Source: a virus
DNA: 25,723 nucleotides
IMG/VR virus record: IMGVR_UViG_3300028392_000267
Span: 1-25,723 of that record
Strand: one strand, 5' to 3'
Shown here: one piece after another, positions 3,862 through 24,248 of the stretch
Layout: the number at the start of each line of letters is the position of its first letter
Position numbering within the stretch: position 1 is the first letter of the stretch
The notes under the pieces: generated by a model
Databases searched by the model: none
Told to the model about the DNA's origin: nothing
Seen by the model: only the letters and a program-made list of their open reading frames with translations
Position numbers and translations under genes: made by a program

Positions 3862-3865
3862 TTAA

Positions 3866-5251: not shown

Positions 5252-5252
5252 A

Positions 5253-5801
5253 TTATTTCACCCCGTATAGTGCAAAAGAAGTATAAGTATTAAAATTAGT
5301 GCTTCCTGTATTTGTAAATTCAATAGATGTAATTGCACTGGTATTAAGCCATAACCCTGATGTTAAACTTGAATAACCAGAACCATTTTGGTCAATGCCA
5401 AATGCTGAACGTACAGTTTTGTATTTATTAGTACTTGCATAATCTAAAATATCCATAACGAATACCCCTGGGTTTGCGGTTCCACCAGTATAGGCAATAT
5501 TATTGCCAGTAATTCCTGTTGCTTGTTCTGCATAAGCAGAAGTTCCTCCACCTTCTAGCAAATGGCGGGTATAATTTGCACCAGAATCTCCATTATAACG
5601 AACTCGAATTGCGTTAATTGCAGTTGGTGTTAATGTAAAACCACGAATCTGTAAATGTTTATATCCACTAGGAATACCAGCAAAAGTAATTGTTGATGTT
5701 GCAGAAGATAGCGTTACAGCAGCCAAAGAATCATAAGCACCAAAAGGTCCATCATAGAGATGCCCACTTATCTGTGAAGCCATAATTCCTAAGTTTGTCA
5801 T
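5253..5801 (-). CDS. Short tail protein carrying only the adhesin N-terminal domain
   Basis: A 182-aa protein. I chose ATG 5801 because it overlaps the upstream stop (TAATG), has GGAG ten bases upstream, and gives the start MTNLGIMASQISGHLYDG, which resembles the start of many phage fibre-associated proteins. A TTG nine codons earlier and an ATG at 5783 are alternatives. Residues from about 25 to the end match the N-terminal domain of the two glycine-rich adhesins: strand TITFAGIPSGY, an RYNGDSG turn, an ITSIEF strand and the end SFALYGVK. It lacks the glycine-rich part entirely. It may be a capping or attachment subunit, a truncated paralogue, or the ancestral single-domain form. There is no frameshift evidence downstream, since the next gene has its own start and ribosome site. 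Confidence 0.68.
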   Translation of the reverse strand: MTNLGIMASQISGHLYDGPFGAYDSLAAVTLSSATSTITFAGIPSGYKHLQIRGFTLTPTAINAIRVRYNGDSGANYTRHLLEGGGTSAYAEQATGITGNNIAYTGGTANPGVFVMDILDYASTNKYKTVRSAFGIDQNGSGYSSLTSGLWLNTSAITSIEFTNTGSTNFNTYTSFALYGVK

Positions 5802-7773: not shown

Positions 7774-8667
7774 CTATCGGCTGTAGTGGACGCGGGTTGG
7801 GTATTGAATCTTCTGCTTAAGCGATTCTTCTTCAAGACGATTTGTATAGAGTGCTTGCAGTTGCTTTGTTACGTTTGTTCCTGTGCCGTATGGACGTTTA
7901 GTGTCCAGTTCGTCTGCACCAGGAGCAGTGATAGAAATACGTGCAGGGTCTACATAAGATGACAGACGCCATGCTGCACCGTAAACAATTACGTCTTTCA
8001 TAGATGTAGGTAAACCTGTAGTTGTTTCAAAATCATCTGTATTGTTAGTCATGTTAGTAGGCAGGTGTGCATACACAATGTTAATGGTACGTCCAGGAAG
8101 GACGTTATCATAAATAGATACTGTGCGACCAGTAGAAAATGCAGGTGCATAAGCAATAGGGTCCCAACGCCATTGGCGAATAGGTAGCCATTCTTTAGTT
8201 GGTCCAACTGACTGCCATGCCATAGATAGAATCTGAATAGCATCTGCAGGTACTGAGTATGTGGTACGGCTAGCAAGGAATGATACGGCTGTTGAGCCAG
8301 TAGCAAATACCTTTGGGTATACCGCATTGACTGTATCGTTGATTGCACGCTTAACTGCAGCACGTGGATAGGTAGGAGTAATAACTACCTTTGCGTTAGC
8401 AGCATGAGAAGTAGCAGTAGTGCCATTGTATCCGCGCCCAAAAGGAGCAATAGTAACAGTGTTTGCTTGACGGTCATAGGAATCCACCCACATCATTTCA
8501 TCATCAATTTCAATAATGCTCTTACCAATGTTATCGGTAGATGCTACGTTAAGTACTAGGTCAGAACTAGTAGCAGCAGTAAGAAGATAAGTAACACGGT
8601 CTTGACGGTAAGTAAAACCAGACAAGTCAAGTTGTACATCATCTACTAGCGAATTAAGTGTTGTCAT
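7774..8667 (-). CDS. Putative head-tail adaptor or tail tubular protein
   Basis: A 297-aa protein starting at ATG 8667, which overlaps the upstream stop (TAATG) and has AGGTGG upstream; an in-frame TTG at 8733 is less likely. Residues 1-22 (LNSLVDDVQLDLSGFTYRQD) are followed by an inserted beta domain (about 25-98) with IIEIDDEMMWVDSYD and FGRGYNGTTATSHA. Residues 100-297 hold a mixed domain: a helix AVKRAINDTVNAVYPKVF, strands TTYSVPADAIQILSMAW, a helix MKDVIVYGAAWRLSSYVD and a charged C-terminal helix LYTNRLEEESLKQKIQY. The two helical segments around a beta core resemble phage adaptor or gp11-like tail tubular proteins. Its place just before the fibre genes fits. The assignment is by layout, not by a diagnostic motif. 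Confidence 0.55.
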   Translation of the reverse strand: MTTLNSLVDDVQLDLSGFTYRQDRVTYLLTAATSSDLVLNVASTDNIGKSIIEIDDEMMWVDSYDRQANTVTIAPFGRGYNGTTATSHAANAKVVITPTYPRAAVKRAINDTVNAVYPKVFATGSTAVSFLASRTTYSVPADAIQILSMAWQSVGPTKEWLPIRQWRWDPIAYAPAFSTGRTVSIYDNVLPGRTINIVYAHLPTNMTNNTDDFETTTGLPTSMKDVIVYGAAWRLSSYVDPARISITAPGADELDTKRPYGTGTNVTKQLQALYTNRLEEESLKQKIQYPTRVHYSR

Positions 8668-8948
8668 TAGGAAGCCACCTGTCGTAGTGCGGTAACCGCA
8701 TCTAATCCTGTTGTACCTGCAAGTGCATTGCAAACTCCATTAATACCTAGATATAACTTAGGGTCTGTTATGCCGTACTTTTTATTAAGTGCACCCTGTA
8801 CTGCCATGGCTGGGGATACACCAGCCCATGCACTAGCAGCACCTTGGTCTGCAAGGTATGCAGTCTTGGCTGGGTAAGACCCACCGCCATTAGCAAGGCG
8901 ATTTAGTTCATCAGTAAGTGTTGAACCTGCGCGACCATATATTGCCAT
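8667..8948 (-). CDS. Small unknown virion-region protein
   Basis: A 93-aa protein coupled at both ends by TAATG overlaps. It begins MAIYGRAGSTLTDELNRLAN and has an Ala/Gly-rich helical middle (AYLADQGAASAWAGVSPAM, then ALNKKYGI). The end (LGINGVCNALAGTTGLDAVT) includes a single cysteine. I do not recognise the family. The segment NGVCNALAGTTGLDA looks like a packed helix-turn-helix of the non-DNA-binding kind. It is immediately upstream of the probable adaptor, so a head-completion or connector role is possible. Confidence 0.6.
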   Translation of the reverse strand: MAIYGRAGSTLTDELNRLANGGGSYPAKTAYLADQGAASAWAGVSPAMAVQGALNKKYGITDPKLYLGINGVCNALAGTTGLDAVTALRQVAS

Positions 8949-9940
8949 TATTGACCTGCCTTTTCTGCGCGCTTGGCTGCTTCTGTAATTTCACGTTGAC
9001 GCAATACTTTGCGTTGATTGCGGATAGCACCCTTGAGTGCAGCAGTTTTAGAACCTGGCTTACTGCCAACAGTACGAAGAAGCACAGTTGTTTTAGTAGG
9101 TTTGCCTGGTTTAACTGTAGCCTTAAGGCGTGATTTAGGATTTAATGCTTCATCAACACTACGGTCTGCTGTGTTTTGCTCAGGGTCACGTTCATATGAT
9201 TTAGATTTGCTTGATGCTTTTTCTACGCCTTGTTCAACACGTGCATCAATTGACTTTAATAGACGAGCATCTTTATCAATAACATCTGCTTCATTAACTT
9301 TAAGTTCTAAGCCACCACGTTTAGATTTAATTTTAGGACGAGCAGGATTTACTTTAACAGTAAGCGCTTCTCTAAGCCTATCACGTTGTGCTTTTAATCT
9401 ATCTGATACAACATCAAATGATTTTTTAGGTGTTGTTCTTGTAACAGTAACAGCACTACGTTTGTTAAGTGTTTTTTTAACTGGTCTAGTAACTGTATCT
9501 TTTGCTGGAGTACCAGTCTTAGTTGTTACGCGAACATCTGGTTTAGGCGCACTACCACGTAATGCTTTGTTTCCACCTTCACGGCGAGCCTTTGGTCCCG
9601 CTGATTCTTCTGCTACACGACGAGCAGCAACTCTGGAAACTTTGTTTTCAGCGGTAACCTTCTCCGCTACAATCTGTGCGCCTTTGCGGTCAGCAATAAT
9701 GCGAGCGCCAGTGCGCTTTGCAAAGTTTACTACAGCAGGAGCAATTTTTTCTGCACCTTCTGCTGCAACCTTAACACCTCTAGCCTTTGGTCCACCAATG
9801 CCTTCAACAATAGATGACCCTACAATTCCAGGAACAGCAACTGCAAGTTTTTTTAACTTAGAACTAAATGATGGCTTAGCGTTTTCTTTACCACTAAGAC
9901 CACTGGTACGAGTACTACCACCATCTGTTGTTGGTTTCAT
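8948..9940 (-). CDS. Large Lys/Arg-rich basic protein
   Basis: A 330-aa protein starting at ATG 9940 with a TAATG overlap. By my count it has 45 Lys and 32 Arg (23 percent) and few aromatic residues, and much of it looks disordered. One hydrophobic stretch (KLAVAVPGIVGSSIVEGIGG, about residues 31-50) could be a short helix or membrane-contacting segment. The rest is a string of basic Ala/Thr/Pro segments with two helix-prone parts (RLKAQRDRLREALTVKV near 181-197 and RNQRKVLRQREITEAAKRAE near 307-326). The composition resembles nucleic-acid-binding, histone-H1-like tails. It is the largest member of a cluster of basic proteins between the capsid and tail genes. DNA condensation inside the head is one possible role, and I see no catalytic motif. 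Confidence 0.68.
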   Translation of the reverse strand: MKPTTDGGSTRTSGLSGKENAKPSFSSKLKKLAVAVPGIVGSSIVEGIGGPKARGVKVAAEGAEKIAPAVVNFAKRTGARIIADRKGAQIVAEKVTAENKVSRVAARRVAEESAGPKARREGGNKALRGSAPKPDVRVTTKTGTPAKDTVTRPVKKTLNKRSAVTVTRTTPKKSFDVVSDRLKAQRDRLREALTVKVNPARPKIKSKRGGLELKVNEADVIDKDARLLKSIDARVEQGVEKASSKSKSYERDPEQNTADRSVDEALNPKSRLKATVKPGKPTKTTVLLRTVGSKPGSKTAALKGAIRNQRKVLRQREITEAAKRAEKAGQ

Positions 9941-10104
9941 TACTTGCCTTTCTTTTGTGCGGCTCTCATATTGTCTACAAGATTGGGATACTTTCTGCCA
10001 GCCTTTTTAGCAGCAGCCTTGGCTGATGCTTTAGCAGCAGGTGTTAATGGTGTTGACTTCTTCTTTGGGTTAGGTGTTTCCCAAACTTTCTTATGTACTA
10101 CCAC
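9940..10104 (-). CDS. 54-aa lysine-rich miniprotein
   Basis: This is a short reading frame starting at GTG (10104-10102). An in-frame stop at 10113-10111 leaves GTG as the only good start, and GCGGA lies about 12 bases upstream. It overlaps the end of the 85-aa gene by seven bases and is coupled to the 330-aa gene by TAATG. Thirteen of its 54 residues are Lys. It starts VVVHKKVWETPNPKKK, has an Ala/Lys helix (AAKASAKAAAKKAGRKYPN) and ends RAAQKKGK. The composition, full use of the gap and coupled ends argue that it is real. It belongs with the other small basic proteins here. Function unknown; a DNA-binding or packaging-associated role is only inferred from charge. Confidence 0.62.
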   Translation of the reverse strand: MVVHKKVWETPNPKKKSTPLTPAAKASAKAAAKKAGRKYPNLVDNMRAAQKKGK

Positions 10105-12076: not shown

Positions 12077-13243
12077 TTAGTAGTTGATTGAAGAAGATGT
12101 CTCTACACGGTAGAGTGCTTCTTGACGGTAAATAGCGTGACCAAGTACGCCGTACCATCCGAGTGGACGGTGACGCATCAACTTGTCAACAACTGGTCCG
12201 ATAACAACGTGTGGTTCTTCAGCCACTGCTTCAGCAAGTGCTTGCTGTCCAGCAAAGTAGGTGTTGAATACATTTGTTTCGTGTGTGAAAGTGATAGATG
12301 CACCTGATGTAACCTGTGTGGTGATAGCAATATCAATTGTTACTGTTCCAGTTCCAATTGCTGTTACGTTTGCACCTGTTGGTACGTTAGTACCAGCAAC
12401 AAGGTCACCAATAACAATGCCTGATGTAGAAGTAAGAGACAATGATGTTGCTCCTACGTTACCTGAAGCAGTTGTTGTTGTTGTAGATGTTGTCTTACCA
12501 GCACCCTTTAGGTCGTTGTAGATACGTGGTGATTCAACATAGAATGCACCTTCGTATGTACCAATTTCGCCAGCCCAGATTGCATCATTAGCCTGGTATT
12601 CGTGTGGCTGACGCCATGAACCTACACCAGTCTCAGCACGAAGGTCGTGTGATACTTCAGGGTGGATACCAGCCCAGTAAAGTGAACCCTTACGTGGGAT
12701 AGCCTTGTTAGCACGCAACTTAGCAGTTGTCTTACGAGCAAGTGCTGAAGTGAATGTGTCTGATGATGTAAGTGTTGCTGTAGATGTACGTGTTCCACCG
12801 TAAAGAACGTTGTCTCCAACGCGTAGTACGTTCTGAGCAACGTCATCAATAGAATCTGCCATGTTGAACGCAATGATGTTAGCAACTGCAGGGTCTACGT
12901 CAGCAAGGCTGAAGAGTTCCAATGCACGTGTAACGAGTACTGCGTTACCATACTCAGCAAGAGTAATGGTTGTGTATGTTGGTGTAGCAAGTGCTACAGC
13001 ATCTGGGTCAGTCTGCTCTGTAAGAGTAGTAATCTGCTTTGTAAGGTCTACATAACGCTGCAAGACAACAGATGAACCAGGGATGCTTTGACGCGCAGGA
13101 GTCTTATCGGCTACTGAGCGAATGAGTGGTTGAGCACGTAGTGCGAACTCGATGAGGCGGTCATACGCCTTCTGTACGAGACCAGCACCACCAACTGTAC
13201 CGCCTAGAGAAGCGGAACCTGTGGTTGTATATGCATTAGCCAT
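12077..13243 (-). CDS. Major capsid protein, N4-gp56 family, with an inserted beta domain
   Basis: A 388-aa protein starting at ATG 13243 behind a near-consensus Shine-Dalgarno site. Residues 1-250 follow the N4-gp56 capsid pattern (HK97-type fold): VQKAYDRLIEFALRAQPLIR, TTITLAEYGNAVLVTRALEL, then VAQNVLRVGDNVLYGG, KLRANKAIPRKGSLYWAGIH and EIGTYEGAFYVESPR. Residues 251-321 are a Thr/Ser/Gly-rich insertion (STTTTTASGNVGATSLSLTS, then GDLVAGTNVPTGANVTAIG), and the fold resumes at ETNVFNTYFAGQQALAEAVA with a GPVVDKLMRHRPLGWYGVLG ending. The insert resembles beta-sandwich domains known on other phage capsids and would be surface exposed. It follows the scaffold-like gene, the usual order. Confidence 0.9.
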   Translation of the reverse strand: MANAYTTTGSASLGGTVGGAGLVQKAYDRLIEFALRAQPLIRSVADKTPARQSIPGSSVVLQRYVDLTKQITTLTEQTDPDAVALATPTYTTITLAEYGNAVLVTRALELFSLADVDPAVANIIAFNMADSIDDVAQNVLRVGDNVLYGGTRTSTATLTSSDTFTSALARKTTAKLRANKAIPRKGSLYWAGIHPEVSHDLRAETGVGSWRQPHEYQANDAIWAGEIGTYEGAFYVESPRIYNDLKGAGKTTSTTTTTASGNVGATSLSLTSTSGIVIGDLVAGTNVPTGANVTAIGTGTVTIDIAITTQVTSGASITFTHETNVFNTYFAGQQALAEAVAEEPHVVIGPVVDKLMRHRPLGWYGVLGHAIYRQEALYRVETSSSINY

Positions 13244-13283: not shown

Positions 13284-13769
13284 TTAGTTAAAATCGCCCG
13301 ACTGAATCATTGAAATAATTTCTTCTGCCGAAGCAGCGTTATTAAGTTTTAACAATGTATCAGCCGCACGGTCAGGCGTCATCGCCTGCTGCGTGACAAT
13401 GTCCTGCTGGCGTAGTGCCGCACGGTCAACTGTCTGCTCAGGCGCGTCGTTATACTGAACTTCTAATCCAAAGACCTCGGCGTTTTCAGTTAAGTAGTCA
13501 ACGACTGACTCTTCTGTAACATCTCCATCTAGTTCTCTTGCGATTAGACGTGCAGCCTTTACGCTTACGCCATTATTTTCTAGAACTTTCTTGATGACTG
13601 ACTCACGTTGTGCTTTGCTGAACGTCTCCAGTTGCTCTGTTAGTTCTTTGATACGCTTCTCATCAGACCGCTTTGCTTTACGCAATTGCTTCATGACATC
13701 GCTATCATTCATCGGCTGTGTAGGAGTTGTATCCTCGTCATCTTCTTCGTCCCAGTAGTTGTTGCTCAT
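13284..13769 (-). CDS. Putative scaffolding protein
   Basis: A 161-aa protein. I chose ATG 13769 because GGGAGGA stands seven bases upstream; an in-frame ATG at 13793 lacks such a site. The N-terminus is acidic (MSNNYWDEEDDEDTTPTQP). Residues about 22-55 form a charged coiled coil (VMKQLRKAKRSDEKRIKELT), then a helical region (KKVLENNGVSVKAARLIARE) and a C-terminal helical part (SAEEIISMIQSGDFN). Small size, acidic start, coiled coil and place right before the capsid gene are typical of phage scaffolds, which are expelled or cleaved after shell assembly. No protease is visible nearby. The structured gap at 13800-13896 lies before it. Confidence 0.75.
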   Translation of the reverse strand: MSNNYWDEEDDEDTTPTQPMNDSDVMKQLRKAKRSDEKRIKELTEQLETFSKAQRESVIKKVLENNGVSVKAARLIARELDGDVTEESVVDYLTENAEVFGLEVQYNDAPEQTVDRAALRQQDIVTQQAMTPDRAADTLLKLNNAASAEEIISMIQSGDFN

Positions 13770-13799
13770 AGCAACCGTCCTCCCATATTTCATTAGTTG

Positions 13800-13896
13800 A
13801 ATCGCAGACCACAGTTCTAGGTTGGGGAACCTAGGCTGGCTTCTACTCCCAGTCTTTACGCCGCACGGGGCTGGTGGGTCCGTGTCGGGATATTAG
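13800..13896 (-). other. Structured noncoding gap before the scaffold gene
   Basis: This is the only gap near 100 bases in an otherwise gap-free gene array. It is about 58 percent G+C by my count. It holds a perfect 7-bp inverted repeat with a four-base loop (CTAGGTT 13817-13823, AACCTAG 13828-13834), a CACGG/CCGTG pair around 13864-13884 with a long loop, and a CTGG/CCAG pair near 13836-13852. No open frame or tRNA-like cloverleaf is evident, and no clear promoter hexamers are visible. It may be a terminator, a 5' leader controlling scaffold and capsid, or a small RNA. Confidence 0.6.
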
Positions 13897-15120
13897 TTAG
13901 TACTTGCCTTGTATTGATTTGCCAAGGCTAGAGAACTGACTGCTTAAGCCAGAGTCTCCACCAAACATTGCTCGTTCTTTTGATGCCAAGCGGTTACGTT
14001 TTAACTTAGCCGCTGCATCGTTCTTAATAAACTCATCTTCAGCAGTTGCTTGGTTATAGGCAATGCCTTCTTCACCATAGATGCTGCTTAACTTTTGTCC
14101 AGTAGGTAACACATCAGCAACCTTCATATAATCTATTTGTGCTTGACCATATGTTTCACCCATTTTGGCAAATTCTTCTGCACGATTTTTGTTAATACCA
14201 AGTCCTTGCGAAGCAGCAACAGAACCAATCTCAGATGCTGTTACCTTTGTTTTAAGCAATGGCAGAGTTTCATCTGGTGCAAGGAAGTAACTAATAAGGT
14301 CTGACTTGCTAACCTCTGGGTAGTACTCCATAAAGTTCTTTTGAATTGCTGGGTCCATATTAAGCACACGGGTAGAAGCCAAATCAATACGGTCTTTGAA
14401 CTCCAAGGGCGATAAATCGCTACCAATATATGTAGCAAACTTTGCTTCATTAGCAGCACGGTCTGTGCTAAGCATATTGTTTAATCCATATGCTCTAAGA
14501 GTTTCAGCATATGAGTTTTCATTTGCAATGTACTGACCTTCAGTTAAAGCATTTAAACCTTTATCAATGCGAGCCTGATTGCCAGCAAAACGAAGTGTGT
14601 AGTCTGCATTCCAAGCCTTACCAGTTGCAGGGTTGGTAGTCTTGTCAAACTTAATTTTGTTTAATGCTTCATTGGGTGTCATGCCTGATTTTGCAAGACT
14701 AATAAAAGAATCGGCTAATGTGCCTAATCCCCATTGACGCAACTGTTCAGACAAGATAGCAAATGCATCTGTGTAATCAGGTCCAGATGACACTGGATTA
14801 GTAACTTGTGGAACAAATACAGGACCTGTAAAGTTAGTACTACCTGGCTTTGCTGTTTGTGTTGGGTACTGAACTTCTGGTGTAAATCCAGGTACAGGAG
14901 TACCATAAGGAATTGGACCATAGTCAGGTGTCTGTGGGACAACAGGTACTGGACCTACAAATCCTGCATCTCCTGGAAGGGTAGCAGGTTCTGGCATTTT
15001 AACTGTTGGCTTAAAGTTTGGTACTACACCAGATGTGGGTGCAGCCGCAGCAGCGGCTTTCTTTTTATTTGCAGCAGCAACCTGAGCGGCTGTTACTGAG
15101 TAGTCTTCTGGACCAGCCAT
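13897..15120 (-). CDS. Putative internal virion protein, third gene of the giant cassette
   Basis: A 407-aa protein. I chose ATG 15120, which overlaps the upstream stop (TAATG); an ATG at 15135 lies inside the upstream gene. Residues 1-125 are Pro/Ala/Thr/Val-rich and look extended (TAAQVAAANKKKAAAAAAPT, then several TP/VP stretches ending SSGPDYTDAF). The rest is helical: LSEQLRQWGLGTLADSFISL, RFAGNQARIDKGLNALTEGQ, YAETLRAYGLNNMLSTDRAA, ATYIGSDLSPLEFKDRIDLA, and a Lys/Arg-rich end. The repeated LRxYGL/WGL pattern and N-rich turns resemble helical proteins I recall between portal and capsid in environmental actinophages. A linear structural or ejected role is inferred; there is no catalytic motif. 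Confidence 0.62.
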   Translation of the reverse strand: MAGPEDYSVTAAQVAAANKKKAAAAAAPTSGVVPNFKPTVKMPEPATLPGDAGFVGPVPVVPQTPDYGPIPYGTPVPGFTPEVQYPTQTAKPGSTNFTGPVFVPQVTNPVSSGPDYTDAFAILSEQLRQWGLGTLADSFISLAKSGMTPNEALNKIKFDKTTNPATGKAWNADYTLRFAGNQARIDKGLNALTEGQYIANENSYAETLRAYGLNNMLSTDRAANEAKFATYIGSDLSPLEFKDRIDLASTRVLNMDPAIQKNFMEYYPEVSKSDLISYFLAPDETLPLLKTKVTASEIGSVAASQGLGINKNRAEEFAKMGETYGQAQIDYMKVADVLPTGQKLSSIYGEEGIAYNQATAEDEFIKNDAAAKLKRNRLASKERAMFGGDSGLSSQFSSLGKSIQGKY

Positions 15121-16655
15121 TAACCAAGCCCCCATGTCTGCGCTATATTACTAATAAAGTCTGCAACTGTTTGATGTGCTTCTGGACTTTTACCAAAGTC
15201 AGGGTGAGACTGCAATGCACGGTTAAAATCTGTAATAGATTTACCACTAGCAATTGCATCTGAAATATCTTTATCTTTAAGTGAATCAGTTACAACAACA
15301 CCAAGTTTATTTTGTTTGGTATACTTGTACTGGTCAGCAATATCTTTGTATGTTCCACCTGCTTGGAAGTGGTCTTTAAGTTGTGGGTGCAAGGTAATAG
15401 CGGTTTGACGAATACGCTCTTCTTGCTTTTTAAGATAATCTTGCTGTCCTAAGCCACTGGCTACATACTTAAGTGCATCAGCAGATGACATCTCTACGCC
15501 ATATGAAGCAGCATACTGCTGCAAGGTAGCAATATCTGTAGCCGCACGGCTACCAGAAGTAAGCAACTTCTCTACATCTGTACCAGCCAAAGACTTCTTT
15601 GCTACGTTGGCAGCAAGAAGTACATGGTCATTTGTACCAAGTTCACTACCAGTAGTAGTACCACTAGATACTGTACGTATAGCCTTTTGCTCTAATGCAT
15701 GCAACTGTGTGTAGTAGGCTTCTTCGTCTTGTGGTGTAGATGGACGACCAATAAGGTCGGTCAAATAGTTGTCAAGTTCTTTCTTAGCATCACCACGTGT
15801 GGTAATTGTTTTGTACTGTGTAGGTGTACCTGCTCCACCGAGTGAAGAGGTAGATGCTAGGTATTGGTTTGTATCAACAGACTTAGTTCCTGGTGAGTAA
15901 AGAGCATCAGATACAAGTTTGGTTGTGTACTTTGTAAGTAATGTGTCAAGACCACCAACCCAAGTACCATCTGCTATTTGACTTGATTTAATGTAATGTT
16001 TATTAACAAGTGTATTTTGAAGTGATGCTAATGCTTGTGGTGTTGAGTAGTTCTTAAGAAAAGCAGCGCGTGCCTCAGACATGCTCTTATATTCAACTGG
16101 CTGTACATTGCCTTTGCCATCTGAAGTAGATACAAATACAGGAGCAACATTACCGTGGGTAACACGACCTGTTGCATCTATTGCATATTCAGACCAGTTA
16201 ATTCCTGGTGCTGCTTTATCTACAACCTTGCCTGAGGCGTCCACCGTTTTAGCACCAAGGTCTTTATTACCAGTAAGAGTAGCCACATCAGCACCAGGTG
16301 CTGCATTAAAAATCTTTACTACACTATCATTAGTTTTTGTATAGGTATCTGAAAGAGATTTATATTGAGCAACTGTTCTATCAAACTCAGCCTGCTCTGT
16401 GCTTGTTGGTACATCACCGCGTGATACGCGTGTAGCATATGCACGTAGCGTACCCTCAAGTGTAAGCATTTCGCTTTCAAGAGACTTAGCATAGTTTATC
16501 TGTGGCTCAGCCTGAAGGCGAGCCTTGTTAATAGTATCTTTGTTTTTCTTAGCAAGAGCAGCAGCCTTTGCTGCAGCATCAGCGTCAGCAATTGCTTTTG
16601 CACGTGCTGCTTTAGCATCGGCAATTAAGGTATCAACATTAAACTTATCAGCCAT
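15120..16655 (-). CDS. Putative internal virion protein, second gene of the giant cassette
   Basis: A 511-aa protein, coupled at both ends by TAATG. The N-terminal 90 residues are a highly Ala/Lys/Asp-rich coiled coil (IADAKAARAKAIADADAAAK), typical of rod-like virion proteins. The middle (about 130-330) is mixed. The C-terminal third has the motif LQQYAASYGVEMSSADALKY, followed by an RIRQTAITLHPQLKDHFQAG segment and GTYKDIADQYKYTKQNKLGV. I recall an A..YG.....A / hP.l...hq.G.t..dia..Y pattern in uncharacterised actinophage structural proteins. There is no peptidoglycan-hydrolase motif. It ends FISNIAQTWGLG, close to a WGLG in the next protein. I suggest a helical internal or ejection protein. 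Confidence 0.62.
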   Translation of the reverse strand: MADKFNVDTLIADAKAARAKAIADADAAAKAAALAKKNKDTINKARLQAEPQINYAKSLESEMLTLEGTLRAYATRVSRGDVPTSTEQAEFDRTVAQYKSLSDTYTKTNDSVVKIFNAAPGADVATLTGNKDLGAKTVDASGKVVDKAAPGINWSEYAIDATGRVTHGNVAPVFVSTSDGKGNVQPVEYKSMSEARAAFLKNYSTPQALASLQNTLVNKHYIKSSQIADGTWVGGLDTLLTKYTTKLVSDALYSPGTKSVDTNQYLASTSSLGGAGTPTQYKTITTRGDAKKELDNYLTDLIGRPSTPQDEEAYYTQLHALEQKAIRTVSSGTTTGSELGTNDHVLLAANVAKKSLAGTDVEKLLTSGSRAATDIATLQQYAASYGVEMSSADALKYVASGLGQQDYLKKQEERIRQTAITLHPQLKDHFQAGGTYKDIADQYKYTKQNKLGVVVTDSLKDKDISDAIASGKSITDFNRALQSHPDFGKSPEAHQTVADFISNIAQTWGLG

Positions 16656-19600
16656 TATTTAATCGCCTTAAATGTATAGTAGGAATCACGTGAATAAAAT
16701 GAAAGCATTGACTTAAAGATGGCACGATTTGCCTCAGTAACATATAAGTCACCAAGTGATAAGTCTTTCAATGCTGCCTCAATCTGTTGTCTACGCTCTG
16801 CTTTAATACTTACGCCACCATCACTAAGGTTCTTTAGTGCTGGGTCTGTTGACATTGATACAAAGTCGCGTATCAATTTAACTGCAATAGCCATACGCTT
16901 GCGTGTTTCTGGTGCAACTGGTGTACTAGGGTCATTGATAATTTGCTCAACACTGTTAAGCATTATGCCTTCTTTGCCAATGTTATTACCCTGCCCAATA
17001 AGGGCTGGTTTTAACAATGGGTTGGCAGCCACAAGAGATGCTCTAGCAGAAGTAGCCTCATTGATAATGTTGGCTCTAGCCATCTGGTCAGATACTGTAT
17101 TGAGTTGTTCTTTTTCAATACGTGCAATGTCATAGTATGATTGCTTATCCTGTGCAACCATTAAGTCGTTATAGTAACTTTCAAGGCTCTTACTCTTAAC
17201 TAGTCCTGCTGCTTGAATAAAGTTATATGTAGCAGCATTAAACTTACCTGCCTGCGGCGCAAAGATATAGGCTGCTTCACCATAGGTATTGATAAGTTTT
17301 TCATTACCTAATGCCCAACCCTTAAGTGCATCTGTGTTCTTAATAAGAACTCTAGTCTGTTTATCCTCACGGGATACAGTGTAGATAAGTTTACCTGGGT
17401 GCTTGCCTGTATAAGTTGCTAGTGCTAACTCATATGGGTCTTGAATATCCCCATTGTTTTTAGCGGTAATACCATTAAGAATGTCAAAGAACTCACTACG
17501 CATACTAGTAATACCAGTATCTTTAACGTAGTTAGGTACACCCTTAGACTCCATAGTAGTAGGAGTTACAGGGGATATAAGCCCTAGAAAATTGCGGAGT
17601 GCAATAACATTGTGCGCAGTAATGCGAATGTTCTTGAGATAGTCAGACTTCTCTTGGTCAGTAGCATTAGGGTTAAGGTGTATACCCTGTGATGCGTTAT
17701 AAGCAATAGCCTGTTGTGCAGCAGTAGCCTCTTGACGAGACTTTTCTGTTGGGTCAATAATTGCCCACAAACGTTGTAGTGATGCAGGCACTGTAGCCTT
17801 AACAACGTCTACGTTATCGCCAACGTTTCCTAGTGCAAAGGTATCAATACCTTCTGCTAGTTGTTTAGAAGGACCACCTATATACTTGCCAATGAATGGT
17901 ATATTGCCAGGAACTGTACCTAGAATATCCTTAAATGCTACTACGCTAAGCCCAGCAATAGGACCAGAAAGTGTAGGAAGTCCAGCATCCTGCTGGAATG
18001 ATGGGTTCATCATACGCAACTTAAGAGTAAAATCATTAAATAACGGTTGACCGTATCCACCCTTACCAGTAATGGTACGCATTGCACTATCAGTTGCACG
18101 GAATAAAACATTATCCATAGGCATAACCAAATATGGTTCACCGTTCTGGTCTTTATGGAACATACCGCTAGCATCTAGCCCTACGTGGGCTAGTCGAATA
18201 CGGTATAGCGCACGTGGTGTTACTTCTTTCATGCGATAAATACGACGGTAAAAATCTTCTGTTGCACGGTAGTAACGACCTACAGTACGTCCGCTAAATG
18301 CAAAGTTAGAGCGAATAGATGGGTTATCTGCAAACTTAAGTACTGTATCTGCAGCCTCACGGGTAGCCAATTCAGTAAATCGTTTCTCAGCAACTGCCTT
18401 ACACTCTGCCATAACCTTCTCATTGCTAAAGCGAGCAGTTGGAAGTTCCCATTTACCAGCACGTTCCATATATAAGTTGTTTGCAAACTCACGTTCAAAG
18501 CCTGCATATTCTTTACGCAACTTAACATAGGTAATCATGACTGCTGGTTGACGGAAGATACCAGTAACCTGGCGGTCCATCATGTTCATTGCGTCTTGAC
18601 CAAAGCGTGCAATTACATTCTCAGCATCAAAGTCACCAAATGCAATTTCAGTATTAATCTTACCAGCAATACGGTAACCAGAGGATGCATCAGTAAATAC
18701 GTCTAATGGAATCATAGCAATAGCCTGATTGTAAGTAGGATAGAAGTTCTGGTAATCAGATGACCTACGTAGTTTGCTCATATTAGACTCAACAAGATTA
18801 AACAATGTTTCATTGAACTTGTTAGAATCGCCGTGGAATGTTTCATACATGTCAACTAATTGACGAGCAATTTGCTGTTCAGCAATGTCAGCCCTAATAG
18901 CGCCTTGCTGTACCTTGCGAGCATTAAATGATGATTGTTCTAAAAATCTATTAACGGTAATTGGGTTGTCAATTACCCACATACCAGTAGCAGAGTTCTT
19001 TTTAAACCCAATTTTTTCCATACCATAGTTAATAGCACCACGCATAGTAGAAGTTGTGCCGTCTAGCATCTTCTCACCTGGGCGTAGCCCACCATACTTA
19101 AAAAATATTTCTGCTGGGTTAAGGATAGTTTCTCCATCAACTTTAAACTTATTACCAACAAACTGTTTGTATAGTTTTTCGTATTGAGCAAGAGCAATTT
19201 CTTGATTAGTAAGACTATCTGTACTAATAATACGTTTACCGTTACGCATCTTGACACCAATAGACTCAAGTGCACGGTCAAGCATAGATGGGTCAATCAT
19301 TGAGGCAGCAACTTCTTCGCCCCACTTACCTGATATGGCAGAGTGAGCAACAAGAGAAGCAGCCATTGAGTTCAATGCATCTGGGCTGTGCTTCCAAGCC
19401 TGCATAAGTAAGACTGCATCTTTTTCATTGACGTATCCACCGTAAAGTTTTTGAATATGGTCAGCAACTGCTTCACGTTTTTGCAAACTAGATAGCAAAC
19501 CAACGTCTGTTCCTAGTTCTTTTGCTTTATCTTGCAATAATTCTTCACGCTTGACTAAACTAAGTGCATCTTCAGGTGAAATAACAATACGTTTACCACC

Positions 19601-21811
19601 AAAGGAAACTTCTGTGCGTTCTTTATTACCAATCTGGAATAACTTTTGAACAACTTGTTTAACTGGACCAGTAGATTCTATAGAACCTGTAAAGGCTCTA
19701 GACATATTGCCAAATTTATTACCTTGACGTGTAACAAATGCCATTACGTCTCTTGCTGGAGCAGTAAGAACGTACATTGTTGCTTCATCAATTGAAGAAC
19801 GAATACCTAAACGTGGTAGAAGCGTAAGCATAGACCAAGCATTAACTACTTGTTTAGCAAATGCTCCCTGTGTAGCACCGCCAACCATGCCAATAGCATT
19901 CTTCTTAGACTTAATATCCCATACCATCTCGCCAATGCGAGTATATGGCAATGAACCTACAGCACGTGTAGCCTGATAAGAGTGAATTGGACCTTCTGAG
20001 TCCGCAATAATACCTGTTTCAGTATCTTTAATTAAACCTGCTGGCATATCTTTAGCATGTTCTGGGTTTACAGCAAGTTCAACTTTAGTTGCAAAGCCTG
20101 CTTTATCGCCATACTTTTCTTCAAGAATAACTCTAATTAAATCTTCACCACGTTCAGAACCACCAAGACCCATTGAGTACATAGTTGCAGCATCAAGGTT
20201 ACGAAGAATAAGAAACTGCTCATCAGCAGTTGCATCTACAAACTTATAAGTAAGGGCTTCAGCCATATCACGTGGAAGCAACTGGCGAGCGCGTGCAGTA
20301 AAGTTACCAGCAGTCTTAATGGCATCTTCACCAGTGCGTACTTCAAGACCAGCAGGAGAACGTGAAGCCATCTGCCCAATAAACTTAGGGTTAAACTTTC
20401 CGTCTTTCCACATTTTAATCTGAGCATTAGCATCTGTGATAGCAGGGCTTAAGCCGTTCTTAAGTGTTTGAACCATGTCTTCAGACTTAAGCAAGTCTTC
20501 ATAGATAGGAGCAATAGCAGCGGCGCGTTCAGCGCCTGTAGATTCTACTGCGTTAAATGTGCGGTCAAGAAAACGAACAAAACCATCACTCATTAAACGG
20601 CTAGTACGTGCAATGGCTACGCCATTACGCATGTAAGAGATACCATCAACACGACCTGATAAAAGCAAATGAAGATTTGTCCCCTGCTCAAAATACTTTT
20701 TAGCAGACTCTGCATCAACTACACCATCAGGCAGGTGCACTGACTTGGCAGTAAGAGATTTAATAGCCTCTGGGTTATTGTACCCAGGAAAATCTCTAGC
20801 AATCTTTGACATAACTGAAGACTTCTCTTCAGCCTGTGAGTATTCTTTAAGAACAGGACCAAGTTGTTTTTCCCATAGGTTATACAACTTTGGGTCTTTG
20901 AATGCATCACCAATAGCAACGCGCATATCTGCGCCATTGTTCATTGCTTGTTTAATACTGTTAGCAAGGCGCTCGCCCTTAGAGGCTCCGCCAGACAATC
21001 CACCAGTCATCCATGTAAGTGGGTCAATTGCTAACTGGTAAGCAAAGTCAACTGCACCTGACATAAACTTAGTAAAGCCGTTTACGTGGTCACCCAGCGG
21101 TCCACCATTTGCAGTGCGTCCACGGTCAAGTATACGAACCAAGTCACGACCTGGAGAAATCTGTGCCATCTTTACGTTTTGAAGAATAGAGTTAAACTCT
21201 TCTGGCTTGTCAAGTGCTCTTGTAAGAGACTTAAGCATACCTTCATCTACTTTACCGTAACCCTGAATAATCTCACCAGGAGTTTTACCTTCAAGTAAAC
21301 CTTGTGCTACAACTACGTCATACTTACCATATGCATCAGTGGCTTCTTTAAGAGCCTTGTTGTCATACAGGTTCTTGCCGTCCCAAGCATCAGTCCATGT
21401 ATGTGTAGAAAATAAGTTTGCACCCTGTTGCACTTCACGAAACACTTTGTAAGGTTCGTTAATAATTTTATTGTATGCACCAGCAACCTTAAAGAGTCCA
21501 ATAAGCGGACTAGCAATTGCTGTGCCAACAGTTTTAAGTACACCAGTTACTGCATCTGTAGCAGTCTTAGGTGGCTGAAGGTAGTCAGCATTCTTAAACA
21601 TAAACTTAAGTTGTCCCTGTATATTAGGGTCAAGTGAGTCGTAACGTTGACGTGCTTTTTCAGGGTCTAACTTAGTTAACTGGCGATGCTGGTCAATTGT
21701 GTATGACATCTGTTCAACCTGTGTAGATTCAGCAGATGACAAACCAGCACCTTTGACAGCAGAATAAAGGTTAGGAGAAACTTTAGCAACAATAGGATTC
21801 AAATATGGCAT
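16655..21811 (-). CDS. Giant 1718-aa virion-associated protein
   Basis: One uninterrupted frame of 5.2 kb, the largest gene here, starting at ATG 21811 by TAATG overlap. Most of it is charged and helical. Hydrophobic helices occur near residues 83-115 (LKTVGTAIASPLIGLFKVAG), 250-275 (AVDFAYQLAIDPLTWMTGG), 650-700 (a VVNAWSMLTLLPRLGIRSSI segment) and 1275-1310 (LPTLSGPIAGLSVVAFKDIL). No protease, glycosidase or kinase motif was found. Giant proteins between portal and scaffold occur in uncultured actinophages as I recall, without a proven role. Size and membrane-interacting stretches suggest an internal core protein ejected with DNA (like T7 gp15/gp16) or a minor capsid protein. Tape measure is less likely, given its location and the lack of repeats. 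It makes a three-gene cassette with the next two genes. Confidence 0.7.
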   Translation of the reverse strand: MPYLNPIVAKVSPNLYSAVKGAGLSSAESTQVEQMSYTIDQHRQLTKLDPEKARQRYDSLDPNIQGQLKFMFKNADYLQPPKTATDAVTGVLKTVGTAIASPLIGLFKVAGAYNKIINEPYKVFREVQQGANLFSTHTWTDAWDGKNLYDNKALKEATDAYGKYDVVVAQGLLEGKTPGEIIQGYGKVDEGMLKSLTRALDKPEEFNSILQNVKMAQISPGRDLVRILDRGRTANGGPLGDHVNGFTKFMSGAVDFAYQLAIDPLTWMTGGLSGGASKGERLANSIKQAMNNGADMRVAIGDAFKDPKLYNLWEKQLGPVLKEYSQAEEKSSVMSKIARDFPGYNNPEAIKSLTAKSVHLPDGVVDAESAKKYFEQGTNLHLLLSGRVDGISYMRNGVAIARTSRLMSDGFVRFLDRTFNAVESTGAERAAAIAPIYEDLLKSEDMVQTLKNGLSPAITDANAQIKMWKDGKFNPKFIGQMASRSPAGLEVRTGEDAIKTAGNFTARARQLLPRDMAEALTYKFVDATADEQFLILRNLDAATMYSMGLGGSERGEDLIRVILEEKYGDKAGFATKVELAVNPEHAKDMPAGLIKDTETGIIADSEGPIHSYQATRAVGSLPYTRIGEMVWDIKSKKNAIGMVGGATQGAFAKQVVNAWSMLTLLPRLGIRSSIDEATMYVLTAPARDVMAFVTRQGNKFGNMSRAFTGSIESTGPVKQVVQKLFQIGNKERTEVSFGGKRIVISPEDALSLVKREELLQDKAKELGTDVGLLSSLQKREAVADHIQKLYGGYVNEKDAVLLMQAWKHSPDALNSMAASLVAHSAISGKWGEEVAASMIDPSMLDRALESIGVKMRNGKRIISTDSLTNQEIALAQYEKLYKQFVGNKFKVDGETILNPAEIFFKYGGLRPGEKMLDGTTSTMRGAINYGMEKIGFKKNSATGMWVIDNPITVNRFLEQSSFNARKVQQGAIRADIAEQQIARQLVDMYETFHGDSNKFNETLFNLVESNMSKLRRSSDYQNFYPTYNQAIAMIPLDVFTDASSGYRIAGKINTEIAFGDFDAENVIARFGQDAMNMMDRQVTGIFRQPAVMITYVKLRKEYAGFEREFANNLYMERAGKWELPTARFSNEKVMAECKAVAEKRFTELATREAADTVLKFADNPSIRSNFAFSGRTVGRYYRATEDFYRRIYRMKEVTPRALYRIRLAHVGLDASGMFHKDQNGEPYLVMPMDNVLFRATDSAMRTITGKGGYGQPLFNDFTLKLRMMNPSFQQDAGLPTLSGPIAGLSVVAFKDILGTVPGNIPFIGKYIGGPSKQLAEGIDTFALGNVGDNVDVVKATVPASLQRLWAIIDPTEKSRQEATAAQQAIAYNASQGIHLNPNATDQEKSDYLKNIRITAHNVIALRNFLGLISPVTPTTMESKGVPNYVKDTGITSMRSEFFDILNGITAKNNGDIQDPYELALATYTGKHPGKLIYTVSREDKQTRVLIKNTDALKGWALGNEKLINTYGEAAYIFAPQAGKFNAATYNFIQAAGLVKSKSLESYYNDLMVAQDKQSYYDIARIEKEQLNTVSDQMARANIINEATSARASLVAANPLLKPALIGQGNNIGKEGIMLNSVEQIINDPSTPVAPETRKRMAIAVKLIRDFVSMSTDPALKNLSDGGVSIKAERRQQIEAALKDLSLGDLYVTEANRAIFKSMLSFYSRDSYYTFKAIK

Positions 21812-22236
21812 TAGTATCCTTGGTCAGTAAGTTGTCTGTAAATTAACTCTGCATCTCCTGATGGGTCAAACTGTGTTAAATGTTTAATAGTGTCAATAAG
21901 TGATGGTCCCATGTTAGGCATACCGCGCATTGCTTCTGTACCAGCACCAGGACCAGAGTTAATACCAGTAGTTACTGGTTCTTCTGGACGTTGTGTTGGT
22001 GCAGACAAAGGCGTAATCTCTGCCATTGGAAATGGATTACCAGCCATTGCAGCACCTGATTGTTGCTGTTGAATTTCTTGGTTCTTACCATATTCAAATC
22101 CTGTGTATGCCTGCTGTGGCTGTGTCATGCCATCAATAGCACCACCATCTGTGCGCTGTGAAAGCGCACCAGGTGCAGATACAGGTGCAGGATTCATAGG
22201 CTGACGATAGCCTCCGCTGTTTTCATTACCAGCCAT
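21811..22236 (-). CDS. Pro/Gly/Gln-rich disordered protein
   Basis: A 141-aa protein with TAATG overlaps at both ends. Residues 1-110 are low complexity, rich in Gly, Pro, Gln, Asn and Met (MAGNENSGGYRQPMNPAPVS, later KNQEIQQQQSGAAMAGNPFP). The last 30 residues form a likely folded helix (SLIDTIKHLTQFDPSGDAEL, then IYRQLTDQGY). The composition suggests a flexible linker or adaptor. A short terminal helix could dock on the portal or the giant protein, between which the gene lies. No similar domain is known to me. Confidence 0.6.
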   Translation of the reverse strand: MAGNENSGGYRQPMNPAPVSAPGALSQRTDGGAIDGMTQPQQAYTGFEYGKNQEIQQQQSGAAMAGNPFPMAEITPLSAPTQRPEEPVTTGINSGPGAGTEAMRGMPNMGPSLIDTIKHLTQFDPSGDAELIYRQLTDQGY

Positions 22237-22466
22237 TACTCGTCCTCCTCGTCCTCAATGTGATTTCTAATATCATTTAATGTTGGCTCTTGTACCCAGT
22301 CAGGGAAAGATTCTTTTGTTGCTACTAGCCATAAAGCATTATCATTACTAAATCCAGCGCGGCGTAATGAGCGATGGTATTCATGTAACCAAATTGCATA
22401 CTCATCTAATTTAGAGTATCCCTCATCAACAACAGTACGCGTTTTACGTTTGCGTGGTGTTGCCAT
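22236..22466 (-). CDS. Small protein, basic start and acidic end
   Basis: A 76-aa protein starting at ATG 22466 behind AAGGAGTA. It begins MATPRKRKTRTVVDEGYSKL, has an aromatic helical core (YAIWLHEYHRSLRRAGFSND, then NALWLVATKESFPDWV) and ends RNHIEDEEDE. The core has the look of a small helical bundle. It lies right after the portal gene. Function unknown; a portal or packaging accessory is possible. Confidence 0.65.
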   Translation of the reverse strand: MATPRKRKTRTVVDEGYSKLDEYAIWLHEYHRSLRRAGFSNDNALWLVATKESFPDWVQEPTLNDIRNHIEDEEDE

Positions 22467-22475
22467 GATTACTCC

Positions 22476-24248
22476 TTAGATTCTACGTTGTTGGCTTAGA
22501 CGTACTGAACTTTTTGTTGCACCTGCTCCAGTCATGCCGCTAAGAAGCGTCTGTAGTTCTGGGCGTTGTGGTGCTTGTGGAGGCATAACGGGTTGAGCGC
22601 CTCCTGCTGGTTCTGCTCCAGGAGCAGCGGGGACAGGTTGCTCAGACTGTTGTGCAGCGCCAGCAGGAGGATTCTCTGGTTTAAACACTTCCTGAACAGC
22701 AGCCTCAATAGTCTTACCTTGCTTACGCATGTTAATGATTTCAGCCATTTGATTAATAAGTTTGGTAGGGTCTTGTCCCTGAGTTGCCATCTGTGGAATT
22801 GCTTGTGCCATGGATGCCATAGAGCCTACAAGCGCATCGCGCATCTTTTCAATTTCAATCTTCTCTTGTTCAAGAGTTACGTTGACACCGAACGGTAGTT
22901 CTCGCATAGCCATGTCCTTGGAGATGAGTCCACCACCAAGTGCCTGCAGCATAAAGATAAGTCCCTGTGCTGGGTTAAGCCCAGCCAACATTCCATATCT
23001 TACATCTGAAGAATAGTCTTGCTTGATATCCTTTGAAGGCTGATAGATAACTTGGTAAGGTGAACCAGCATCTACGCCACGGATTGTTTTCTTTTCATCA
23101 AATAATTTTTCATCAACTTCAAAACAGTACGAAATAACTTGTCGTAGTGCTGTAGTAAAGATTGCTTGTGCTGATTTGATTTGAGTATCAAATGCACCTA
23201 GGAGCGCTTGTACACCCTGTCCAGTGACAACGCTTGCGTTCATGTTACCTGTACGAGATTCAGGATAACGAGCGCCTACGCGAAGTTCATCATTGAGCAA
23301 CTGCTGCTCAGTAAATGCACCCTGCGGTAATGTAAGTTCAACACGGCGTACACCTGCTGGGTTAGCAGTACGAATGACTGCATCTCCACCGAGTTGAAGT
23401 TCTTGCACATCTTGTGGCAAGACAATTGGAGCCTGTACTGACTTCTCTGCTGCTTCCATTGCAAGTAATGCAAATCGGTTGCGAAGCAACTGAATACCAA
23501 GTACGTCATCAAACTGTCCACGTAGTTCGCCATCCACTGATGGACGACGAGCAATAATAACATTCATCTTACCAATTGGGTTAGCCGCTTGTGATAGAAG
23601 CATGTTATTACGTGATGGAAGGTAAAGCACAGACTGGTCTTTGTCATAGTAGCGAATCATCTCTACCATGCCATTGAGGTCTTGCTTGTATCCCAACTTA
23701 CCAAGCAACGCATACTCTTGTTCTGGGAACATAGCCACTAGTTCACCTAGTGTCATTGAGTAGCGTTTAGCGAAAGCAACACAGCGTCCATAGCGGTCAA
23801 ACTCTGGGTAAGCACCTACGGGGTTTTCTAAGCGGATGCGTGGTAACTTTGCTTCTTCATCCAGTTCAATTACGAACGGGAGGAATCCATATGTGATGTA
23901 CATGTCTGCGCCGTTGTACATCTGTACTTGTAAATCTGAGTGAAAGAAATAGTTGTTAGCAATACGAGTACGGTTGTCTGCAAACGTACGAGCCTTTTCA
24001 TTCTGCTGGTTAACCGCAGAGCAGTTAACTGCTGGCAGTGGTGCCATAACTTCTGCAAGGTCGCGTGCAACAATATCAATAAAGTTTGCTACTACGTTCT
24101 GGTCAATGCCATCTGGAAAGAAGTTAGGATATACCTGACTAATCTTTCCTTGGCGCACCATCTGTACGTCACCGTTGCGCTGGTCACGACCATGCGCACG
24201 GTAGCGCAGAGTCTGGACTCTTGCGCCAATCTGGTCAATTGATAACAT
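22476..24248 (-). CDS. Portal protein
   Basis: A 590-aa protein starting at ATG 24248 behind TTAGGAC. Portal proteins form the 12-fold ring through which the terminase packages DNA. N-terminal features are MLSIDQIGARVQTLRYRAHG and the FIDIVARDLAEVMAPLPAV helix. The clip and stem region (about residues 300-385) has LPQGAFTEQQLLNDELRVGA, then ASVVTGQGVQALLGAFDTQI and KSAQAIFTTALRQVISYCFE, a pattern common in actinophage and environmental portals. Residues 420-590 are a long C-terminal region: a helical part (MLQALGGGLISKDMAMRELP) and a Pro/Ala/Gln-rich tail. Gene order after terminase and length are as expected. Confidence 0.82.
   Translation of the reverse strand: MLSIDQIGARVQTLRYRAHGRDQRNGDVQMVRQGKISQVYPNFFPDGIDQNVVANFIDIVARDLAEVMAPLPAVNCSAVNQQNEKARTFADNRTRIANNYFFHSDLQVQMYNGADMYITYGFLPFVIELDEEAKLPRIRLENPVGAYPEFDRYGRCVAFAKRYSMTLGELVAMFPEQEYALLGKLGYKQDLNGMVEMIRYYDKDQSVLYLPSRNNMLLSQAANPIGKMNVIIARRPSVDGELRGQFDDVLGIQLLRNRFALLAMEAAEKSVQAPIVLPQDVQELQLGGDAVIRTANPAGVRRVELTLPQGAFTEQQLLNDELRVGARYPESRTGNMNASVVTGQGVQALLGAFDTQIKSAQAIFTTALRQVISYCFEVDEKLFDEKKTIRGVDAGSPYQVIYQPSKDIKQDYSSDVRYGMLAGLNPAQGLIFMLQALGGGLISKDMAMRELPFGVNVTLEQEKIEIEKMRDALVGSMASMAQAIPQMATQGQDPTKLINQMAEIINMRKQGKTIEAAVQEVFKPENPPAGAAQQSEQPVPAAPGAEPAGGAQPVMPPQAPQRPELQTLLSGMTGAGATKSSVRLSQQRRI

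Follow-up and report, generated by a model that had tools for sequence, protein, structure and literature searches.

A run of coupled genes lying between the portal and scaffold-like genes was analysed in IMG/VR virus record IMGVR_UViG_3300028392_000267, of which the window, meaning the whole 25,723-nucleotide (25.7 kb) stretch under study, covers positions 1 to 25,723. The late region is encoded on the minus strand in the order TerL (cut at the window end), portal, open reading frames (ORFs) of 76 and 141 amino acids (aa), genes of 1718, 511 and 407 aa, a scaffold-like gene, the major capsid protein (MCP), small genes, an adaptor, a fibre and other tail-side genes. A preliminary description had singled out the 1718-aa gene (the giant, 16655..21811), the 511-aa gene (15120..16655) and the 407-aa gene (13897..15120), and all three are present on the minus strand, joined by TAATG overlaps. 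It had left out the two small ORFs between portal and giant, namely the 76-aa ORF (22236..22466, minus strand) and the 141-aa gene (21811..22236, minus strand; phrog_8200), the latter of which belongs to the unit. TAATG overlaps at 22236, 21811, 16655 and 15120 join 76/141, 141/1718, 1718/511 and 511/407, respectively, which suggests that translation along the run may be coupled. The last gene was called as 412 aa from 15135 in a mechanical ORF list; the ATG at 15120, giving 407 aa, appears to be the better start because its methionine is at least 90% conserved across a 38-row alignment. The run is flanked on the left by the portal (590 aa, 22476..24248, minus strand; phrog_104, E 2.1e-26) and on the right by the scaffold-like protein (169 aa, 13284..13793, minus strand; phrog_7813, E 7.7e-30; scaffolding phrog_648, E 0.0057), which is followed by the MCP (388 aa, 12077..13243, minus strand; phrog_1357, E 1.1e-76). 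The portal and MCP calls are solid.

A scan with the portal profile returned at least 574 relatives among at least 600 matched stretches, from which the 80 best were retained. In 42 of these 80 loci the sequence extends 7 kb or more beyond the portal on its downstream side, and 41 of the 42 have an intact giant. In the remaining locus, L066, it is split into overlapping ORFs of 768 and 827 aa (L066:3113-7874), both about 60–69% identical to other giants, which may reflect a frameshift, a misassembly or a genuine split of the gene. Complete freshwater-type giants, some of which were fetched with the giant itself, numbered 52 and spanned 1569–1953 aa. Two genes of at least 200 aa lay between giant and scaffold in 24 of the 34 loci with scaffold or MCP visible, and three in the other 10. 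The order of portal, giant, helical pair, scaffold and capsid that had been described for the window is thus kept in relatives.

Searches with the portal and MCP identified the Planktophila phages LanE43-AprE7 (OX376640; E7) and LanE43-AprF5 (OX376641; F5) as closest to the window, with identities of 71–75% for the portal and 66% for the MCP. These were the first isolates on Ca. Nanopelagicales (PMC10202952). The window and E7 share gene order and are 67% identical in TerL, 70% in the portal, 66% in the MCP and 58% in the scaffold-like protein. By these measures the window appears to belong to the freshwater Nanopelagicales phage family of PMC10202952, a placement made from TerL, portal and MCP identity together with gene order, as distinct from a formal whole-genome classification. 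Next closest were Streptomyces phages of cluster BF (Beephvirinae), with portal identities of about 41–42%; in Immanuel3 (NC_048686) identity to the window was 47% for TerL, 41% for the portal (gp3), 49% for the MCP and 32% for the 407-type protein. The window falls outside Beephvirinae on account of its different cassette layout, the only distant homology and the absence of tRNA genes (Rfam and tRNA scans of the window gave no match). The available passages of PMC11536984, PMC13097060 and PMC9753666 describe cluster BF phages as podoviruses by electron microscopy, and one BF-related podovirus is reported there to have a tail of 16 nm and to lack an identifiable tape measure. The preliminary description had spoken of a little-studied virion type, which needs tempering since the virion is related to these podoviruses and is not wholly unknown. 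An SU10-type adaptor of 319 aa (7774..8733, minus strand; Pfam PF24175, 29.4 bits against a cut-off of 27 bits) is a further pointer to a short-tailed virion and was found in 12 of the 12 relatives of about 40 kb that were searched. A scan of genome contigs with the portal returned no relative, and hence no prophage or host link.

Comparison of the two isolates revealed where these genomes differ. E7 and F5 DNA is 96.3% identical over 5.5 kb up to E7 base 8372 and 97.7% identical from base 16922, with no match between. This unmatched region is the cassette and coincides with a published 8 kb island encoding three (E7) or four (F5) hypothetical proteins, to which no role was given (PMC10202952); F5 carries an additional 67-aa ORF before the giant. 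Between E7 and F5 the proteins are 100% identical in TerL, 96% in the portal, 99% in the scaffold and 99% in the MCP; identity is 23% for the giant, 26% for the second gene and 29% for the last gene. Although E7 and F5 share family and gene order with the window, E7 has a distant relative of the window giant (type A, 27% identity over residues 1056–1683) and F5 has a cassette of type B. Similar contrasts were found in L069/L092 (portal 99%, giant 37%) and L078/L091 (portal 92%, scaffold 99%, giant 23%). Giants were less than 60% identical in 6 of 19 pairs with portals at least 95% identical, in 0 of 7 pairs with portals at least 99% identical, and in 11 of 28 pairs with portals at least 92% identical and the scaffold seen in both. 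Median identities in those 11 pairs were 95 for TerL (n=10), 94 for the portal, 54 for the 141-type gene, 37 for the giant, 32 for the second gene, 53 for the last gene, 92 for the scaffold and 93 for the MCP (n=9), with the provisos that pairs share members and so are not independent, that fragments occur among the TerL and MCP ORFs, and that the second genes of L081/L093 are not equivalent. In the records of about 40 kb for L039 and L042, aligned DNA was mostly 81–97% identical and the largest gaps were the cassette and a fibre-side stretch. The 141-, 1718-, 511- and 407-aa genes constitute a cassette that is exchanged between near-identical phages, mostly as a block.

Nine pairs were examined for the left edge of DNA similarity, and in 7 of them it fell inside the 141-type gene. 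It lay in the 5' part of the giant in L062/L063 and at the start of the second gene between the window and L003, and parts of the cassette are therefore also exchanged separately. The right edge was inside the last gene or at its end, and was sharp at the last-gene stop codon in L078/L091 and L086/L091. Omega for the giant was 0.06–0.12 in eight close pairs chosen for this purpose which, together with the long frames and conserved order, shows that the genes are not chance ORFs. The dS of the giant exceeded that of the portal in 7 of the 8 pairs, the exception being L005/L006, and was about tenfold higher in L061/L088 (1.115 vs 0.116). High dS combined with low omega in the giant indicates that old alleles are exchanged, as opposed to new ones being rapidly selected. 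It could be argued that no exchange takes place and that the cassette simply changes faster because selection on it is relaxed or positive, given that omega of the last gene and of the 141-type gene was somewhat above that of the portal in most pairs. This is very improbable, as the giant is under purifying selection yet far exceeds the portal in dS in some pairs, and as the DNA edges are sharp.

Co-variation of the cassette genes was evaluated by partial Mantel tests given the portal, in a sample of 36 loci (41 less 5 near-duplicates) where the window was represented by L002. The giant co-varied with the C-terminal part of the 511-type protein (0.80), the core of the 407-type protein (0.67) and the 141-type protein (0.62), none of which was matched in 999 permutations (0/999 each). 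There was no co-variation of the giant with the scaffold (-0.03, 687/999).

Giants of at least 900 aa, 63 in total, fell into 18 clusters at 40% identity and 70% coverage. Profile comparison united types A (window, E7), B (F5), C and D with the Immanuel3 giant in one distant superfamily, mainly via type C (A–C P 98.0, B–C P 99.9, C–Immanuel3 P 100, A–D P 91–95); direct comparison of A with B gave P 0.6 and reversed-profile controls gave P of 1.0 or less. The type E giant (cluster 7) had no profile link to the other giants. The 407-type protein (phrog_8424 in the window) was homologous across all seven groups compared, with a lowest P of 91.7. In the 511-aa protein, phrog_6654 was matched at residues 370–510 (E 2.9e-9), and the C-terminal 150 or so residues of the 511-type matched the C-termini of Immanuel3 gp11 and gp12 as well as the middle gene of three-gene cassettes (hhalign P 98.5–99.3); the matches to gp11 and gp12 were also seen by blastp. 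The middle part matched Immanuel3 gp10 more weakly (P 92). Taken together, these matches suggest that the 511-type protein may be a fusion of two proteins that are separate elsewhere.

Immanuel3 resembles the window in that a giant, of 1648 aa, lies between portal and scaffold, but it is followed by four genes, gp10, gp11 (NlpC/P60), gp12 (SLT) and gp13 (407-type), of which two have hydrolase domains; the same run was present in 48 loci from a gp13 scan, as far as each contig extends. Cluster BF phages also differ in having an endolysin gene before the portal and a tRNA cluster before the scaffold. A scan of 52 second or middle proteins returned NlpC/P60 once and SLT once, in Immanuel3 gp11 and gp12 respectively, and no hydrolase domain was recognised by Pfam in the window proteins. 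Of 28 giants scanned, 7 matched phrog_10618, whose function is not known. Weak Pfam matches to DUF6468, Phage_Gp17 and SdiA-regulated, and single PHROG matches including DprA-like phrog_768 (E 2.7e-11), ParB-like and others, occurred in one giant each and may mark inserted domains. The identification of the giant as an enzyme was rejected on the grounds that the window giant had no Pfam match and that others gave only single hits.

Structural models were obtained for the 407-aa protein and for residues 600–1718 of the giant. The AlphaFold2 model of the 407-aa protein (mean pLDDT 80) has a disordered N-terminal third followed by a helical domain, residues 114–387 being almost all helix, and bears out the helicity originally proposed for it. 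The description of the 511- and 407-aa proteins as Ala-rich is true only mildly, at 13.3% and 12.6% compared with 11.1% in portal and MCP. The giant model is mostly helical with a better-scoring mixed stretch at about 840–1060, and its low confidence (mean pLDDT 60.6) means that fold searches with it say little. A search of BFVD with this model returned three matches at E of 0.001 or less, none with a named function.

The cassette genes probably encode an inner-core or DNA-ejection module of a short-tailed actinophage, which is the best reading of the comparative evidence. It is favoured by the conserved gene order, by the C-terminal domain shared with NlpC/P60 and SLT proteins, by the SU10-type adaptor, by the helical 407-type protein and by co-variation within the cassette. 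The occurrence of a giant at the same place in distant podoviruses, described as having a tail of 16 nm and as lacking an identifiable tape measure, points the same way. A co-evolving gene cluster with one very large member, as in ejection-type sets, is what was found. In the portion of PMC8954989 consulted, podovirus ejection proteins are described as diverging faster than portals and as swapping hydrolase domains. The earlier proposal of an ejection or inner-core system stands in this respect, while its argument from several hydrophobic helices in the giant fails, and no profile or fold linked the proteins to known core proteins.

Several observations weigh against an ejection module. No 19-residue window of the giant reached 1.6 on the Kyte–Doolittle scale (best 1.42, residues 88–106), so that no clear membrane helix was found in it, and the 511-aa protein and the 412-aa form of the last protein had no stretch at 1.0. 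The window giant matched nothing in Pfam or PHROG, which equally means that it is not clearly homologous to a tape measure or an enzyme. No convincing PDB fold match was obtained for either model: the 407-aa model had none at E of 0.001 or less (VIA best Z 4.1), and the low-confidence giant model had none that was significant (VIA best Z 6.9 over 80 residues, spread across unrelated helical proteins). PDB sequence searches with three alignments gave nothing below E 0.2. Comparison with T7 and P22 ejection proteins by hhalign, of low power because single sequences were used, gave P of 2 or less with one exception, T7 gp14, which reached P 32 over 45 residues when compared with type C giants. 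For the scaffold, the call is weak, its basis being position and the weak phrog_648 match. Finally, the equivalents of gp11 and gp12 are annotated as minor tail proteins in Streptomyces phage Treat.

This last annotation would fit a different assignment, in which the giant and the 511- and 407-aa proteins belong to the short tail, or to its tip, and act as lysin-bearing minor tail proteins outside the internal core, and Immanuel3 gp11 and gp12 do match tail-protein PHROGs among others (single members). We consider this unlikely, since the genes precede scaffold and capsid and lie away from the adaptor and fibre genes, a protein of 1569–1953 aa seems oversized for a tail of 16 nm, and the exchange between E7 and F5 leaves adaptor-side DNA unchanged. 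Injection of proteins by phages is known, and the cassette proteins could also be host-takeover effectors carried in the capsid, their great diversity reflecting host targets and not DNA passage; the matches of single giants to unrelated domains, such as the DprA-like PHROG in 1 of 28, would agree with this. Such a role is improbable in view of the similar length of the giant in every lineage with room for it, the low omega and the linkage to hydrolase-bearing relatives. The size and helicity of the giant and weak, non-significant BFVD fold similarity to several tape measures (best E 3.3e-3) would speak for a long-tail tape measure. This is the least credible identity and was rejected on the short-tailed relatives, which according to the available passages have no identifiable tape measure, on the presence of the SU10-type adaptor and on the absence of the TMP_3 profile (one of several tape-measure families) from all 12 relatives.

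As an ejection module, the 141-, 1718-, 511- and 407-aa proteins would act as one virion unit. Made beside portal and scaffold, they would be incorporated around the portal as the procapsid is assembled and, upon release through the short tail, would lengthen the route of the DNA through the actinobacterial wall and membrane, presumably by forming a channel. Two module proteins of the Streptomyces relatives appear to carry wall hydrolases on the shared C-terminal domain, which the freshwater 511-aa protein would keep without a recognised hydrolase. Exchange would proceed by homologous recombination in the flanks. Escape from exclusion by a resident phage, or from recognition of the ejected proteins by a host factor, is the favoured cause of the polymorphism because two phages of one host strain have nearly the same tail-side DNA and very different cassettes. 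E7 and F5 lyse the same host strain (PMC10202952) and their tail-side DNA is about 97.7% identical; a single host envelope therefore admits either cassette, which makes matching to that envelope alone improbable as the cause. More tentatively, and with some doubt on our part, the cassette might be a recognition-type virion locus, in which deeply divergent, mutually exchangeable ejection machines are held under negative frequency-dependent selection such that a resident phage or host factor blocking one type would be evaded by a different type. The podovirus lineage would then cross the actinobacterial envelope by means of a giant protein set without sequence relationship to the T7 and P22 sets.

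The available part of PMC10883804 describes P22 gp7, gp20 and gp16 as acting together and as having highly diverse alleles that function when the whole set is exchanged, which is the likeness to the cassette. Ejection-protein changes in P22 overcome SieA exclusion, and sets from relatives work together where a single foreign gp16 or gp20 fails (same source); P22 and SieA serve as the model for the exclusion escape favoured here. The P22 genes differ in being encoded after the tail genes, in phages of Gram-negative hosts, and have no detectable homology to the cassette. T7 gp14, gp15 and gp16 are likewise three internal virion proteins with a very large one that has a wall hydrolase, but they are encoded after the tail tube genes, from small to large, again with no detectable homology.

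Diversity and mosaicism of ejection proteins (PMC8954989, as far as its available text goes) and the E7/F5 island itself (PMC10202952) were already known. New, as far as our searches reach, is that the island can be read as a probable ejection module, that its limits could be set and take in the 141-type gene, that many lineages exchange it, that it has a domain in common with hydrolase-bearing proteins and that it lies between portal and scaffold. In the literature searched, a scope that excludes PMC5315475 and PMC10202952 supplementary tables, there was no earlier account of the module as an actinophage ejection system. Metaviromic islands of marine phages have been found to include internal virion proteins, for reasons that the authors call obscure in the passages available of PMC3909814. 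Here the island is resolved gene by gene. E7 and F5 differ in the island and are about 96–98% identical in the rest of the structural region, and the cause is therefore testable with these two phages on one host strain. The podovirus ejection systems reviewed in the accessible portion of PMC8954989 come mostly from phages that infect Gram-negative bacteria, and phi29-like phages are reported to lack them. If actinobacterial podoviruses do have a giant ejection set, the known range of DNA-delivery machines would be widened; actinobacteria include very abundant freshwater bacteria.

Additional features were observed around the cassette. Between the portal and the 141-type gene, E7 (L014:7500-8036), F5, L069, L078 and many relatives have an ORF of 178–192 aa that starts M-TTIIG; the window has the 76-aa ORF in place of this proteasome-like ORF of about 180 aa. 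Its match to Pfam Proteasome was above the cut-off in E7 (25.5 bits) and below it in L069 and L078. It would be an N-terminal-nucleophile hydrolase encoded in the head region, perhaps a maturation protease; phage proteasome homologues (PPH, AAH) have been described before (PMC8665760, in the text available). At the pre-scaffold position, which is occupied by the tRNA cluster in the Streptomyces relatives, the window has a gap (13794-13896) where hairpin folding is possible (z -1.53, not remarkable). A 330-aa ORF without PHROG or Pfam match (8948-9940, minus strand) overlaps a 330-aa open frame on the plus strand (9018-10010). Neighbouring ORFs of 191, 461 and 447 aa at 2518-5828 are related to each other, the 191-aa ORF being 33–34% identical to the first 170 or so residues of the other two. 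E7 has short counterparts of these ORFs (169–191 aa), and they are probably a host-recognition island.

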